64,000 bases of DNA from Sulfobacillus thermotolerans (GTDB lineage Bacteria > Bacillota > Sulfobacillia > Sulfobacillales > Sulfobacillaceae), in contig CP019454.1 in NCBI GenBank assembly GCA_002951815.1, positions 1,240,001-1,304,000 of the forward strand, read 5' to 3'. This document shows, one piece after another, positions 20,164 through 31,479 of the stretch. Within the stretch, counting starts at the first letter, position 1. Each line of letters begins with the position of its first letter. Under the pieces are notes generated by a model that had not been told where the DNA came from, made no database searches, and worked only from the letters and a program-made list of their open reading frames with translations. The translations under genes and the position numbers were made by a program.

Positions 20164-20958
20164 GTGCGCCCGGCATGGGCGGTTTCTCTACGGGGAAAGT
20201 CCGGAACGGGGTTGGTGACACACCACCGTTAGCCAACAGCAAGGGTATCCGCCGTGAGGCGGAATCTGGAGGAAGCTCGCGGCAAAATCTCGACCCTGAG
20301 GAACACGAATTGCATATAAGGCCTGCCGCAAAGTCCTGTGGCAAGCCCAAGCTCACATCCGGGACGGTTACATGGGCGGTCGACATCGAGCTCAAGGCCG
20401 TCTTTGGCCACGCGAACCATGACATGCTCATGGCGCGTGTGGCACGCGAGTCGCCGACGTCTTATGCGGCGCTTCCTCGAAGCCAGAGTGTGAATCCACG
20501 GAGTCGTCGTACGGAACGTGGAAGGCACCCAACAGGGGGGCCATTGACTCCGCTGCTGGCCCATATCCTCTTGGATGACTTCGACCGAGAACTCACGAAA
20601 CGGGGGCATCGCTTCGTTCGCTACGCGACGGTTCTAACGTCTATGTGATGAAGTCCGTTGTGAACGCATTGATGGCTGGCCTCTGTTTGTGGACGCAATG
20701 GAAACGGGTACGCACACGCTACCGGGAGCTTCGGATATGGAATGTGCCCGAGCAATGGGTGCACGTCATGGCGAGGACCGTGGGCAATACTCGAAACCTC
20801 AATAACGCGCTCGACACGGCATATTTCACACAGGCCTGGCTTAAGAGCGTTACGGAGCAATATCGATATCTGCGTCAATCTTCATAACCCGCTGTATGCG
20901 GACGTGCTTGTACGGTGGTGTGAGAGGTCGGGGGAGAGACGCCCCCTCCTACTCGATC
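20164..20958 (+). mobile_element. decayed group IIC intron inserted behind a terminator
   Basis: The 5' end GTGCGCCCGGCATGGG and internal stretches such as GCAAGGGT...CCG, GGAATCTG.AGGAAGC and CCTGAGGAACACGAA are those of a bacterial class C group II intron domain I. The 3' part shows a domain V-like hairpin (about 20888-20919, from CGCTGTATGCGG to GTACGGTGG) and a domain VI stem in which A20951 is bulged between CCT and CTCGAT, seven or eight bases before the end, matching a branch point. The element is only about 0.8 kb instead of about 1.8-2 kb, because most of the reverse-transcriptase ORF is deleted. Insertion directly after an intrinsic terminator is the known preference of this class. 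Exact 3' boundary uncertain by a base or two. Confidence 0.85.
20373..20887 (+). pseudogene. remnant of group II intron reverse transcriptase/maturase
   Basis: Fragments in two frames. The first (20373-20648) contains WAVDIELKAVF (RT domain A, degenerate), GGPLTPLLAHILLDDFDREL (domain B region) and RFVRYA, where the catalytic YADD is broken by a four-base deletion at about 20630. The downstream frame then reads SNVYVM and, after a further internal deletion of RT blocks 6-7, the maturase/X domain QWKRVRTRYRELR to TEQYRYLRQSS, ending at 20887. The N-terminal RT blocks are missing as well. It cannot encode an active enzyme. Confidence 0.85.
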
Positions 20959-25780: not shown

Positions 25781-26557
25781 GTGAGAAGTTTATATAAAGG
25801 GATTATAGGATTTGGGTTGGTGGCCATTCCGATTCAACTGTATAAAGCGATGGATGATGACAAGATTACGATGCATTTGTTGCATGTGGTCTGTGGGTCC
25901 CGGATTCAGTACCGCAAACATTGTCCCGTATGCGATGTCGACGTCCAGCCTGATGACGTTGTACGTGGAGTGGAACTTCCCGATGGACGCTATGTGATTT
26001 TGCAACCGGATGAGGATTCCCAGACTTCCGCTGATCGCACCATTAACCTGGTCAGCTTTCACCAGTTGGGAGAGATTGACCCCGTGCTGTATCGACAGGC
26101 GTACTGGGTTAAGCCGTTACCCGGCGGAGAAAAAGCGTACCGTTTATTGACCGATACCTTGCAAGAAACAAGGACGGTAGGGCTGGCTACAATGACTTTG
26201 CGACAAAAGTTTTCGTTGTCAGTGATACGCCCGGTTCCGCCTCACGTGTTAATGTTGCATAGCCTCTACTTTCCGGAAAGTTTGCGCGAAGAAGGGAGAA
26301 CCTTTGGACAGACCACGGCCGTCATTTCTGAAAAAGAACGGGATATGGCCAAGATGTTAGTCACGCAGATGCAAGAGCCGTTTGTGGAGGAGAATTATCC
26401 CAACTTAGCGCGTCGTGAACTTTTGGAACGCATTGAGGCGCTGGCACCAAACGCGCAACCGGCACCCGATGCGAGGGTCACAAAAGAAGTGCTGTCTTTG
26501 ATGGAACAATTGCGTTCCTCTGTGGAACAAAGAACGCAGCGTGAACACCAAGCATGA
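25781..26557 (+). CDS. ku: Ku protein, non-homologous end joining
   Basis: Homodimeric ring that binds double-strand DNA ends and recruits LigD. About 258 residues. The N-terminus LYKGIIGFGLVAIPIQLYKA is the typical Ku start, followed by CPVCDVDV, a zinc-finger-like insertion near residues 40-50, and the core beta-barrel segments with YRQAYWVKP and the C-terminal RRELLERIEAL. GTG 25781 starts three bases after gerW. It overlaps the ligase gene by four bases (ATGA). Confidence 0.95.
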   Translation: MRSLYKGIIGFGLVAIPIQLYKAMDDDKITMHLLHVVCGSRIQYRKHCPVCDVDVQPDDVVRGVELPDGRYVILQPDEDSQTSADRTINLVSFHQLGEIDPVLYRQAYWVKPLPGGEKAYRLLTDTLQETRTVGLATMTLRQKFSLSVIRPVPPHVLMLHSLYFPESLREEGRTFGQTTAVISEKERDMAKMLVTQMQEPFVEENYPNLARRELLERIEALAPNAQPAPDARVTKEVLSLMEQLRSSVEQRTQREHQA

Positions 26558-27369
26558 GAGAACCGGGATTTTTTGTTCCGCCGATGCTGGCTGTCACCGC
26601 CCAAGAGCCATTTGATGACTCCCAGTGGATTTATGAAGTGAAGTGGGATGGCTATCGATGCCAGATTCATTGGAATGGAACATTGCGCTTGTATTCCCGT
26701 CAAGGGCATGATTTGCTCACACAATTTCCTGATCTGCAAGATGCGGGGACGTTTTTGCCGTTTCCCATGGTCTTAGATGCGGAATTGGTGGCATGGATTG
26801 ATGGACATCCATCGTTTGCGGCCTTGCAACGGAAAGAACCTGTTCCACACCGCCTTATCGTGTTTGATTGTCTGTTTGCTCAAAACCGGTGGGTGTTGCA
26901 TGAACCGCTGGCCACGCGCCGTGCGCTGTTGCAAGAACGTGTGCAGTCTGCAGGACCTTTAGTGGTGTCTGAAGCGGTTGACGGCCAAGGCTTGGCGTTG
27001 TTGCATGCAGTGCGGGAGCAGGGCTTGGAAGGGGTCATGGCCAAAGATCGGCACAGCCTATATCATCCGGGCCAACGGGTTCGGTTTTGGCAAAAGTTTC
27101 TCGCAGAATATCGACAGTGGGCTCTTGTGCCTTATGTGTCGCGTAGGAAGCACCACGGGGGCTGGTTATGGGCTATTGTGTCGGCCGAAACGCAATTACC
27201 CCTTGGGTTGTTGCCGGCGCCTCGTTCATGGTCGGTACCCGAAGAACTCCAGCAAACGTCGGCCGATATGGTACCGCTGAATCCTCCTCTTCATGCGGAG
27301 GTGTCGTACCGCATGTTAACAGATACGGGGCGCATGCGTCATGGCCGCATAAGAAGGTGGAGGCGGTAA
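26554..27369 (+). CDS. ligD: ATP-dependent DNA ligase, LigD ligase domain
   Basis: Seals DNA ends in Ku-dependent joining. 271 residues holding the nucleotidyltransferase domain (adenylated lysine in EVKWDGYR, then LDAELV, FDCLF and LEGVMAKD) followed by an OB domain containing RFWQKFL. It corresponds to the ligase module of the three-domain LigD; no phosphoesterase module is seen. ATG 26554 overlaps ku, and its stop overlaps the start of the polymerase gene as TAATG. Confidence 0.92.
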   Translation: MREPGFFVPPMLAVTAQEPFDDSQWIYEVKWDGYRCQIHWNGTLRLYSRQGHDLLTQFPDLQDAGTFLPFPMVLDAELVAWIDGHPSFAALQRKEPVPHRLIVFDCLFAQNRWVLHEPLATRRALLQERVQSAGPLVVSEAVDGQGLALLHAVREQGLEGVMAKDRHSLYHPGQRVRFWQKFLAEYRQWALVPYVSRRKHHGGWLWAIVSAETQLPLGLLPAPRSWSVPEELQQTSADMVPLNPPLHAEVSYRMLTDTGRMRHGRIRRWRR

Positions 27370-28202
27370 TGGATATTCCCCATCCGGAACGAATCATATT
27401 TCCTGGTAGCGGCGTGACCCGGCGCCAATTAGTCGAGTATTATGCGGCCGTGGGACCGGTATTGTTGTCGTATTATCGTAACCGCGCGCTGACCATGGTG
27501 CGCTGGCCGCACGGGCTAGGGGGCCCCCATTTCTTTCAAAGACATCCCGAGGGAAATAGCACCCAACCCATTACAGTCGATACGGTGGAACAGCTGATCT
27601 GGTGGGCTGCCCGTGGCACGATTGAATGGCATGTGCCGCTTAACACGTTGACAGCGCCAAACGAGCACGATTGGGCCGTAATTGACCTGGATCCACCCGG
27701 TAGCGAATGGACCCCGTTGATGCAAGCCGCGCGGATTATTCAAACCTTGTTGGACATGTTGCACGTGCCGCATGCCTTGAAAACCTCCGGCCGGCGCGGT
27801 TTGCACTTTTTTATACGTATTGAACCGGAAAATCCAGGACGTGTGATGGCTGCCATCAAGGCGCTCGCGTCTATTGCCGTTAAGACCTATCCGGAGGTGT
27901 TTACGGTGGAGCGATTAAAAGCGAAAAGGCAGAACAAGATGTACTTAGATTATTTGCAAAACGGTCCTGGGAGGACAATGATTGGGGTCTATTCCGTACG
28001 GTCTGAGGAACCGGGGACCGTGTCTTGTCCCTTACAGCCCGACGATTTGCACTATCCCGCCACGCATTGGACGATGGAGAGGGTATCAAAGAGGCTGCGA
28101 CGTGAAGGAGATTTGTTTTCTTTGGTGCCAGCGATTCCTCTTGTGCAGGTTCTAAGCCGAGGCGGAATTCATGTAGACCACATGGCGGGGGACATAGGAT
28201 GA
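27369..28202 (+). CDS. LigD polymerase (archaeo-eukaryotic primase-type) domain
   Basis: Fills gaps and adds nucleotides at breaks. 277 residues of the AEP superfamily: PERIIFPGSGVTRRQLVEYY, PHFFQRHP, catalytic carboxylates in VIDLDPP and the HALKTSGRRGLHFFI motif. It is a separate gene rather than fused to the ligase as in mycobacteria or B. subtilis. ATG 27369 overlaps the ligase stop by one base; ATGA overlap with the helicase gene follows. Confidence 0.93.
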   Translation: MDIPHPERIIFPGSGVTRRQLVEYYAAVGPVLLSYYRNRALTMVRWPHGLGGPHFFQRHPEGNSTQPITVDTVEQLIWWAARGTIEWHVPLNTLTAPNEHDWAVIDLDPPGSEWTPLMQAARIIQTLLDMLHVPHALKTSGRRGLHFFIRIEPENPGRVMAAIKALASIAVKTYPEVFTVERLKAKRQNKMYLDYLQNGPGRTMIGVYSVRSEEPGTVSCPLQPDDLHYPATHWTMERVSKRLRREGDLFSLVPAIPLVQVLSRGGIHVDHMAGDIG

Positions 28203-29818
28203 AACGAAAAAAACCCGTACCCTTGGAACATTTGGTACAGCATTTGGTATCCTGGCCGACGCTAGAACCCTTTGTGAACAAGGGCTTAAACCTTCATGCG
28301 TATCAGATTGACAGTGTCCTGACTGTGGTCAATCAATTAGAAGGACGTGCTATCTTAGCTGATGAGGTCGGATTAGGCAAAACCATTGAGGCGGGGCTTA
28401 TTATTGCGGAACTGAAGGCCCGCCAAATTATCAACCATGTGCTCGTATTGGTTCCCGCGGGGCTGATTACCCAATGGATTGCCGAACTGGAGCAAAAGTT
28501 TGGTTGGACAGCGTTGCATGATGCCCATGATACCGGCTGGCTCTGGGTGTTATCCATCGATCAAGCCAAACGCGCTCCGTTATATCAACAATTGCAATAT
28601 GTGCCGTGGGACTTGGTTATCGTCGATGAGGCCCACCATCTGAAAAATACCCGAACCCTCAACTATCAACTCGTCCAGGGATTGACCGCGAAATTTATGG
28701 TTTTGCTCACCGCTACTCCAATGGAGAATGAATTGACCGAGCTTTACAATCTTGTCAATTTGGTGAAGCCAGGAAAATTTGGCAGTTACTTGCGCTTTTA
28801 TCGGCAATTTATTTTAGATAAGCGCACGCCGAAGAATGCCCGAGCGCTGAGAAAACTTTTGGCCGAGGTGATGGTGCGTAATCAGCGCCAGAATGTGGGC
28901 TTGGAGCTTCCGCCTCGCGAAGTGACCCTTTGGCCTATTAGGCTCACCGATGCCGAGCGGCATTTATATGACACGATGACCCAGGCCCTCAAAACTGAAT
29001 ATCGGCACCGAATGCAAGGGAATGAAACGGTCTTGCCCCTGATTACGCTTCAACGCGAATTATGTTCTTCGCCGCATGCCTTAATGCCGACGTTGGAATC
29101 TGCGGAGTGGCTTGGCCAACGCCAGCAGGAGTTGTTGGCGTTGGCCCGTTCCGTAGGGATGCCGGCCAAAATGCAAGCGGTGGTCGATGTGATTCGCGCG
29201 TTAGGCGGGAAATTTTTGGTGTTTACGGAGTACCGCGCGACGCAATTGGCGTTGGTTCAGTTTTTGCAGGAATCCGGCGTCGCGGCGCAACCTTTTCATG
29301 GCGGCTTGCGCCGCACAGAACGTGACCGCTTGATTCGTTGGTTTGAGGAAGGCGATCATGTGTTAGTTTCAACAGAGGCAGGGGGGCAAGGGCTGAATCT
29401 GCAGTTTTGTCATCAGTTGATTAACTTTGATTTGCCGTGGAATCCCATGCGGATTGAGCAGCGCATTGGGCGCATTCATCGTCTGGGGCAAACACATCCG
29501 GTTGAAATCTATAATCTCTTTACAGTAGATACGATTGAAGAACACATATTGCACCTCTTGCATGAGAAAATTGATTTGTTTCGCCATGTTATTGGCGAGA
29601 TTGACGTTATCTTGCGCCACATGGAGCGCCGCGGGAGCCTTGAAAAGCGGCTGCTTGATATCTTTTTCTGGGAAGATGACCGTCAAGAGATCGAAACGCG
29701 TCTAGACGCTTTGGGCCAAGAATTTCTTGCTGTGCGGCGCCGCTTATCATGGCCTGATAGTGGCGTGGAATCTGGAACGAGCCGTAGTAGCCAAACAACC
29801 ACGGAATCAGTACACTAA
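28199..29818 (+). CDS. SNF2-family DNA translocase/helicase
   Basis: 539 residues with a full set of SF2 motifs: DEVGLGKTIEAG (Walker A), VDEAHHLKN (Walker B/DEAH), LTATPMEN (motif III), then in the C-terminal lobe FLVFTEYRATQ, STEAGGQGLNLQF (motif V) and RIEQRIGRIHRLGQ (motif VI). It resembles RapA/YqhH-type enzymes. ATG 28199 overlaps the LigD polymerase stop by four bases, so it belongs to the NHEJ operon; it may remodel or clear proteins at breaks, which is inference. Confidence 0.9.
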   Translation: MKRKKPVPLEHLVQHLVSWPTLEPFVNKGLNLHAYQIDSVLTVVNQLEGRAILADEVGLGKTIEAGLIIAELKARQIINHVLVLVPAGLITQWIAELEQKFGWTALHDAHDTGWLWVLSIDQAKRAPLYQQLQYVPWDLVIVDEAHHLKNTRTLNYQLVQGLTAKFMVLLTATPMENELTELYNLVNLVKPGKFGSYLRFYRQFILDKRTPKNARALRKLLAEVMVRNQRQNVGLELPPREVTLWPIRLTDAERHLYDTMTQALKTEYRHRMQGNETVLPLITLQRELCSSPHALMPTLESAEWLGQRQQELLALARSVGMPAKMQAVVDVIRALGGKFLVFTEYRATQLALVQFLQESGVAAQPFHGGLRRTERDRLIRWFEEGDHVLVSTEAGGQGLNLQFCHQLINFDLPWNPMRIEQRIGRIHRLGQTHPVEIYNLFTVDTIEEHILHLLHEKIDLFRHVIGEIDVILRHMERRGSLEKRLLDIFFWEDDRQEIETRLDALGQEFLAVRRRLSWPDSGVESGTSRSSQTTTESVH

Positions 29819-29897
29819 AGAGAAAATATCTCCAATCAGAGGTCATAGGATTGCAGGTAGCTATTGTCCCTTGCGGCTAAGAAAGGGGGTGTCCAAT

Positions 29898-30590
29898 ATG
29901 GCGTTTTTAAGTGACCGTGATCGTCAAACATTGGCCGAGATGTTTCGGGACCTGAAATTTCCCGTGCATCTGGAGCTGTTTATCAATCCGGATCAAGAAT
30001 GGAGCCAGCATGCCCAGGGGATTCTCTCCGAAGTGGTCGGTTTGATGCCGGATCTGCTGCACTTGGAAACCTATCATCTGGAAAAAAATCGGCTTCTGGC
30101 TGCGTTGTATGGGGTGACGGCTGTTCCGTGCATTATTTTACGCGACAAGAACGAGGATGATAGTGGCATTCGCATTATCGGCATTCCGGCTGGATACGAG
30201 TTTGCTGTATTGGTGGAAGATATTTTAGATGTGTCCACCGGGCGCAACCGATTGCGGGAGAAATCGCTTCATTACATTCGCAATTTGGAACGCGATATTA
30301 CGATGCAAGTCTTTGTCACGCCCACGTGACCTCATTGTCCCCGGGCAGTTCGCCTGGTACATCAGATGGCGTTGGCCAACCCTGTGAGGGTACGCGCTGA
30401 ATCAGTAGACGCGAACGAATTTCTAGAATGGGCGGACCAAGAATCCGTGTATTCGGTACCGAAAACCGTACTGACGACCAAGGATCCTGCAAGGTCAGTG
30501 TCGTTTGAAGGCGCCGTCAGTGAGGAATACATGATTCGTCAAATTAAATTACTGCTGGATGATACCGGACAGGTTGATTTAGGGAGTTGA
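29898..30590 (+). CDS. two-domain thioredoxin-fold oxidoreductase, candidate selenoprotein with in-frame TGA
   Basis: Read straight through TGA 30327-30329, the frame gives 230 residues with the layout of the protein disulfide oxidoreductase / AhpF N-terminal family. Domain 1 (about 1-120) is a thioredoxin fold without CxxC but with a VTAVPCI cis-proline loop. Domain 2 (about 137-230) begins QVFVTPT, then position 144 is TGA, then PHC, so the active site would be U-P-H-C (Cys147), followed by the cis-proline at about 188 (YSVPKTV) and SFEGAVSEE. The reading frame stays open and in register to TGA 30588-30590. A hairpin lies 17 bases beyond the TGA. If TGA is not decoded, this is a nonsense-mutated pseudogene giving a 143-residue product. 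Start ATG 29898 after AAAGGGGG. Confidence 0.75.
30336..30361 (+). promoter_or_regulatory. SECIS-like hairpin downstream of TGA
   Basis: CCGGGC (30341-30346) pairs with GCCTGG (30352-30357) around an AGTTC loop; TGT (30336-30338) and ACA (30359-30361) can extend the stem across a small internal loop. The loop begins 17 bases after the TGA and has G as its second base, the position and feature expected for a bacterial selenocysteine insertion element. No selB binding data. Confidence 0.5.
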
Positions 30591-30600
30591 AGAAGATATC

Positions 30601-31479
30601 GTGAATCAGGTTAGACAGATAAAAACGGTGGCGGAACTACGCGCGTTTCGCCAAGAAGTTGGGCGCCACCCCCAGCGGGTGGCGCTTGTGCCGACCATGG
30701 GGGCTTTGCATCAAGGGCACTTGGCATTGGTTAAGGCAGCGTGGGATCGTTGTGAGCAAGTCATTGTCAGTATTTTTGTCAATCCCATGCAATTTGGGCC
30801 CCATGAAGATTACGGGCGCTATCCAAGGACTCTGGACCACGATATGGAGTTGTTATCGGCGTATCCCGGTACGGTCGTGTTTACGCCAAGCGTAGAAGAA
30901 ATGTATCCGACGGGTCCTAGTTGGACTATTGTATCGATTCCACGGATGACCGGAACAATGTGTGGGCTGCACCGGCCAGGACACTTTGAAGGGGTGTGCA
31001 CGGTAGTGGCCAAACTATTCAATATAATCCAGCCGGATATGGCGTTTTTTGGTCAAAAAGATGGACAACAGTTGGCCATTATCCGGAAGATGGCCGCCGA
31101 TTTAAACTTCCCCGTAGAAATTGTAGCGGTGCCGACCGTGCGAGAACCATCGGGACTTGCCTTATCCTCACGCAACCAATATCTTGACAGTGAGGATTTG
31201 AGGCGGGCACCTCGGCTGTATCAGGCGCTTCGCCAGGCCCGGGACCGGTTTGAACAAGGCGAACGGACGGGATCTGTTTTGCTTGACGTGGTGCACAATG
31301 TGCTGGCAGATGCCGATATCACTCCAGAATATATCGCGTTGGTCGATTACCATACATTAGAGCCCGTCGAACAGATTACCGATCGCCCCGTCATGCTAGC
31401 TTTGGCAGCTCAGATTGGCAAGGCCCGTCTTATTGACAATGTTGTATTAACCGGCTCCGAAAAACCTAGACATCCTTAG
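30601..31479 (+). CDS. panC: pantothenate synthetase
   Basis: Condenses pantoate and beta-alanine with ATP. 292 residues, normal length. VPTMGALHQGHLALV is the nucleotide-binding HIGH-like motif, SIFVNPMQFGPHEDYGRYPR follows, then FFGQKDGQQLAI and LALSSRNQYL; all active-site stretches are intact. GTG 30601 begins 10 bases after the redox gene, with GGGAG upstream. panB and panD are not in the window. Confidence 0.95.
   Translation: MNQVRQIKTVAELRAFRQEVGRHPQRVALVPTMGALHQGHLALVKAAWDRCEQVIVSIFVNPMQFGPHEDYGRYPRTLDHDMELLSAYPGTVVFTPSVEEMYPTGPSWTIVSIPRMTGTMCGLHRPGHFEGVCTVVAKLFNIIQPDMAFFGQKDGQQLAIIRKMAADLNFPVEIVAVPTVREPSGLALSSRNQYLDSEDLRRAPRLYQALRQARDRFEQGERTGSVLLDVVHNVLADADITPEYIALVDYHTLEPVEQITDRPVMLALAAQIGKARLIDNVVLTGSEKPRHP

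Follow-up and report, generated by a model that had tools for sequence, protein, structure and literature searches.

The N-terminal domain of AhpF carries one active motif, located in the second of its two thioredoxin folds. Pyrococcus furiosus PDO (PfPDO, PDB 1a8l) carries a Cys pair in each fold, CQYC in the first and CPYC in the second. Two reviews (PMC9312934; PMC13188914) list the NCBIfam family TIGR02187, whose name PDO_seleno_TRX states its selenoprotein nature, among the predicted selenoprotein families of prokaryotes, with a UxxC motif and under the description 'Homolog of AhpF N-terminal domain (Grx-like domain protein)'. The Sulfobacillus gene considered here is not named in either review, and the Sulfobacillus papers found make no mention of a TGA-containing TIGR02187 protein; a selenocysteine (Sec) formate dehydrogenase was reported in 2014 for all Sulfobacillus genomes examined (PMC4378227). 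Bacterial SECIS elements are stem-loops lying just past the UGA, with a small apical loop that contains G (PMC1088965). A class of tRNA-Cys designated selC*, which combines a tRNA-Sec-like architecture with a GCA anticodon and U73, has also been described (PMC7609411).

The window analyzed here is a 64-kb stretch of Sulfobacillus thermotolerans DNA, corresponding to bases 1240001-1304000 of a genome assembled as a single contig of 3,317,203 bp; all genome-wide statements below are based on family searches. Judging from the comparisons that follow, a TGA in the middle of one of its genes is almost certainly a Sec codon at a redox active site. The gene, its parts and its neighbors are as follows.

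28199-29818, + strand: upstream neighbor, SNF2-type helicase gene (name inferred from the translation; kept beside the orthologues)
29883-29891, + strand: probable ribosome-binding site AAGGGGGTG ahead of ATG 29898 (read from the sequence)
29898-30590, + strand: TGA-containing gene, predicted to encode a 230-residue Sec-containing two-domain thioredoxin-fold protein (TIGR02187, PDO_seleno_TRX; family score and AlphaFold model)
29994-30005, + strand: first-domain site, CxxC in two-site PDOs and QEWS here, which is no redox motif (alignment)
30327-30329, + strand: TGA, codon 144, the predicted U of the UPHC motif (TGA, TGC or TGT in homologues; Sec machinery in the genome)
30336-30361, + strand: putative SECIS hairpin, core stem 30341-30346 with 30352-30357, loop AGUUC at 30347-30351 (pairing conservation and covariation)
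30459-30461, + strand: codon for Pro188 in VPK, the expected cis-proline of the thioredoxin fold (invariant in the alignment)
30601-31479, + strand: downstream neighbor, panC, pantothenate synthetase (name inferred from the translation; kept beside the orthologues)

The reading frame is as the initial annotation had described it in all but one detail. ATG 29898, the in-frame TGA at 30327-30329 and the terminal TGA at 30588-30590 are in place, as are the junction QVFVTPT-U144-PHC147-PRAV and the downstream segments YSVPKTV and SFEGA, while the sense codons past the internal TGA number 86 rather than the 87 claimed. In the alignment, the orthologues start at the same residue as that given by ATG 29898. 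With C placed at the TGA, the joined product scores 202.6 bits against TIGR02187, above the cut-off of 185, and the homology is continuous through the internal TGA (E = 4.5e-60); the genome search with the stop read through returned 194.8 bits. The AlphaFold model of the joined protein (mean pLDDT 94.2) consists of two thioredoxin folds and, together with the family score, bears out the two-domain architecture proposed earlier. The C-terminal fold contains U144-P-H-C147, the UxxC arrangement of the selenoprotein form of the family. The gene is a further member of a catalogued selenoprotein family, an assignment that is correct and unsurprising.

Structural comparison returned PfPDO as the best PDB match, with a whole-length likeness across two thioredoxin folds (TM 0.90, 34% identity) and the second-domain motif at the same place. 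The two proteins differ in their motifs, since the first fold of the S. thermotolerans protein has QEWS in place of a Cys pair and the second has a Sec-led motif; it therefore lacks the CxxC in both folds that marks two-site PDOs of the PfPDO type. Relatives such as L040 have CRFC at the first-fold site where the S. thermotolerans protein has QEWS. The putative redox motif is kept by the second fold only, as U144-P-H-C147. The N-terminal domain of AhpF (PDB 6il7, 5h29 and 1zyn) likewise shares the two thioredoxin folds, with a TM of about 0.8, but in AhpF this domain is joined to a flavoprotein reductase and works with Cys, whereas the present protein is stand-alone and would use Sec. In comparison with the catalogued TIGR02187 family, with which it shares the NCBIfam model and UxxC, the gene is distinguished by the absence of the first-domain CxxC and by its conserved SNF2-panC setting. 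The initial annotation was right about Sec but had missed both the catalogued status of the family and the loss of the first-domain redox motif.

Alignment of homologues at position 144, which had been proposed as a check, yielded only TGA, TGC or TGT, so that the Sec/Cys pairs expected of a bacterial selenoprotein are present at this position. The same-position TGA occurs in 34 of the loci examined, that of S. thermotolerans included. Among orthologues from the same genus, six of seven other genomes have TGA, and the closest (G001, 84% identity) has TGC; in other genera the codon is TGA, TGT or TGC. A scan of 80 relatives with named genomes found TGA in 13, including Desulfosporosinus, Alicyclobacillus and Tepidibacillus records, and TGC or TGT in all others, although TGA forms are probably under-represented in this count, since one of the two patterns used had Cys at the codon-144 site. 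Class-wide, TIGR02187 matches with one internal TGA are common. On a maximum-likelihood tree, no fewer than seven Sec/Cys changes have to be assumed, and branches with good support dictate five of these. As reconstructed in this way, Sec/Cys exchange at the panC-linked locus is repeated, a point that goes beyond the initial annotation. Because the G001 genome has its own tRNA-Sec, its Cys codon represents a switch at the level of the gene and not a loss of the Sec system, and the TGC of so close a relative implies that Sec is not indispensable at position 144. Judging by the motifs now present, the panC-linked locus seems to have drifted from UPHC through CPHC to CPHS. Six panC-linked orthologues outside the genus (L038, L043, L045, L048, L050 and L072) carry CPHS or CAHS, the resolving Cys now being Ser.

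A second TIGR02187 paralogue, about 38% identical to the window gene, lies elsewhere in the same genome (G000:C1:980369-981004; L053:561-1208, minus strand). It has TGA at the same codon, within UPYC, followed by the same SECIS core; no match to panC was found within the 1.8 kb examined beside it.

Folding recovered the hairpin that the initial annotation had placed at 30336-30361. It consists of an outer TGT/ACA stem, an inner CCGGGC/GCCTGG stem and the loop AGTTC, which starts 17 nt past the TGA and has G at its second position. It is thus a stem-loop just past the UGA with a small, G-bearing apical loop, as in bacterial SECIS elements; the Rfam search of the 64-kb window returned one tRNA and one group II intron and no SECIS family match. 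By itself, the hairpin has an unremarkable thermodynamic stability (z = -1.0 against shuffles), and full pairing of the six core positions would arise in about 5% of random synonymous recodings. What exceeds chance is conservation, namely the homology through the TGA, the shared TGA codon and the retention of the hairpin specifically in TGA carriers. Across 49 loci, all six core pairs are formed in 32 of 34 with TGA versus one of 15 with Cys, counts that are uncorrected for relatedness. Among the Cys loci, the hairpin is intact only in the 84%-identical sister G001, with TGC, as would be expected from a recent Sec-to-Cys change. Among 34 distinct TGA sequences, 99% of cells are paired, a figure that favors the tested register because five TGA sequences of Alicyclobacillus-type relatives, with the hairpin in a shifted register, were omitted when covariation was counted. 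In this set, both sides have changed at two of the six core pairs (Desulfosporosinus, for example, has CCGUGC/GCACGG), and six further pair types occur; the covariation score was reached by none of 500 shuffles, and slid controls paired at 21-47%.

The search for selA, selB, selC and selD suggested in the initial annotation recovered the complete set, as expected for a genome that encodes selenoproteins. The source genome contains tRNA-Sec(UCA) (65.8 bits, anticodon TCA), selB matched over its full length (353.5 bits), selA (543.7 bits) and selD (356.5 bits), together with a formate dehydrogenase gene with an in-frame TGA. The selD gene (L054; G000:C1:198204-199139, minus strand) itself has an in-frame TGA within SG-U-GCK, so its SGUGCK motif probably makes SelD a selenoprotein too.

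Three readings of the TGA that dispense with Sec were weighed against these observations. Since TGA is a normal stop in the source genome and also terminates this very gene, the internal TGA could be a true stop, leaving a recent pseudogene or a one-domain protein; yet the same TGA recurs across many genera, the second half stays open and conserved, the hairpin is kept almost only alongside TGA, and the Sec machinery is complete. Termination was rejected on these grounds as very improbable. Equally improbable is a sequencing error for TGC or TGT in the S. thermotolerans assembly: the nearest relative does have TGC, but independent genomes of the genus share both the TGA at codon 144 and the SECIS hairpin, and this candidate too was rejected, although with a single assembly a small chance of a miscall in this particular genome is left. 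As independent genomes have the same TGA, neither a lesion nor a sequencing error is a live alternative. An altered genetic code in which UGA specifies Trp can be set aside as close to negligible, because homologues have Cys but never Trp at position 144 and the tRNAs examined include only tRNA-Trp(CCA) and no Trp(UCA). The proposal of a Sec codon rather than a nonsense mutation is thus supported by the Sec machinery, by the TGA, TGC and TGT of the homologues, and by a hairpin that is kept with TGA and decayed with Cys.

A more intricate alternative arises from a further tRNA gene of the source genome (G000:C1:184368-184458, minus strand; L002:1497-1587, minus strand), which resembles tRNA-Sec but has a GCA anticodon. 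Its encoded 3' end is T-CCA (with U73), its acceptor/T branch is 13 bp long, and it scores above the Rfam tRNA-Sec cut-off. The source genome also has an ordinary tRNA-Cys(GCA), and no fewer than 11 other genomes of the family yielded calls of GCA relatives of the tRNA-Sec-like molecule. A modified 8/4 form carrying an A51a bulge has been described for selC* (PMC7609411) but is not evident in the S. thermotolerans tRNA, which folds as 9/4 or 8/5. By its architecture, anticodon and U73, the predicted tRNA nevertheless fits the selC* tRNA-Cys class. A non-canonical tRNA-Cys of this kind, acting with SelB, has reportedly inserted Cys at a Sec UGA. UGA 144 might accordingly be dual-decoded, mainly as Sec and also as Cys delivered by the selC*-type tRNA-Cys(GCA) via SelB, for instance under selenium shortage, and natural TGC and TGT orthologues suggest that Cys is functional at this position. 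The GCA anticodon, however, pairs with UGC and UGU and not with UGA, and recoding of UGA by the selC* class is said to have been demonstrated in a heterologous system only; we consider dual decoding unlikely. We are just as doubtful of its broader form, in which UGA 144 would be ambiguous by design, Sec and Cys both entering through SelB and the SECIS element, and this tolerance would have eased the repeated exchange of TGA, TGC and TGT. The selC*-type tRNA-Cys is nonetheless a second point beyond the initial annotation and, with the Sec/Cys switching, among the parts worth following.

The reading that we hold with high confidence is that the gene encodes a one-site redox protein of two thioredoxin folds, in which UGA 144 would be decoded as Sec through tRNA-Sec, SelA, SelD, SelB and the hairpin. 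Charging of tRNA-Sec(UCA) would depend on SelA and SelD, and SelB, docked on the hairpin 17 nt past UGA 144, would deliver it; all the parts are present as genes and the hairpin has been conserved, from which we infer insertion. The protein is probably cytoplasmic, and U144-P-H-C147, in the second thioredoxin fold, would be its only active site. Disulfides may be the target of the Sec144 selenolate, or a thioredoxin-reductase-like flavoprotein may reduce that selenolate; Cys147 would serve to resolve the intermediate formed by Sec144. Such a flavoprotein probably supplies the electrons, and several thioredoxin reductase genes are present in the source genome. The motif and the fold match of the model suggest that the protein carries electrons or reduces disulfides, much like a free-standing AhpF N-terminal domain; a carrier of the AhpF type would take its electrons from a flavoprotein of the thioredoxin reductase kind and pass them to a peroxiredoxin.

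These results correct a gene that routine annotation may break in two or label a pseudogene, and they indicate that this bioleaching acidophile uses selenium in thiol redox proteins and not in formate dehydrogenase alone. The locus also lends itself well to the study of Sec/Cys exchange as a natural experiment, as the gene and its neighbors remain constant through several independent switches and the 84%-identical sister has TGC with its SECIS hairpin still intact.

The SNF2-PDO-panC order is common to orthologues in many related genomes, and in S. thermotolerans panC starts 10 nt past the stop of the TGA-containing gene. No dedicated reductase or peroxidase gene directly adjoins the TGA-containing gene, and panC gives no clear hint of a substrate. 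Further upstream in the window, Ku-like, ligase-like and polymerase-like open reading frames lie in a row at 25781-28202 and, as judged by eye from their translations, resemble a bacterial non-homologous end-joining cluster. The group II intron found by Rfam is a domain match to RF02001 at 20248-20405, with 52.7 bits.
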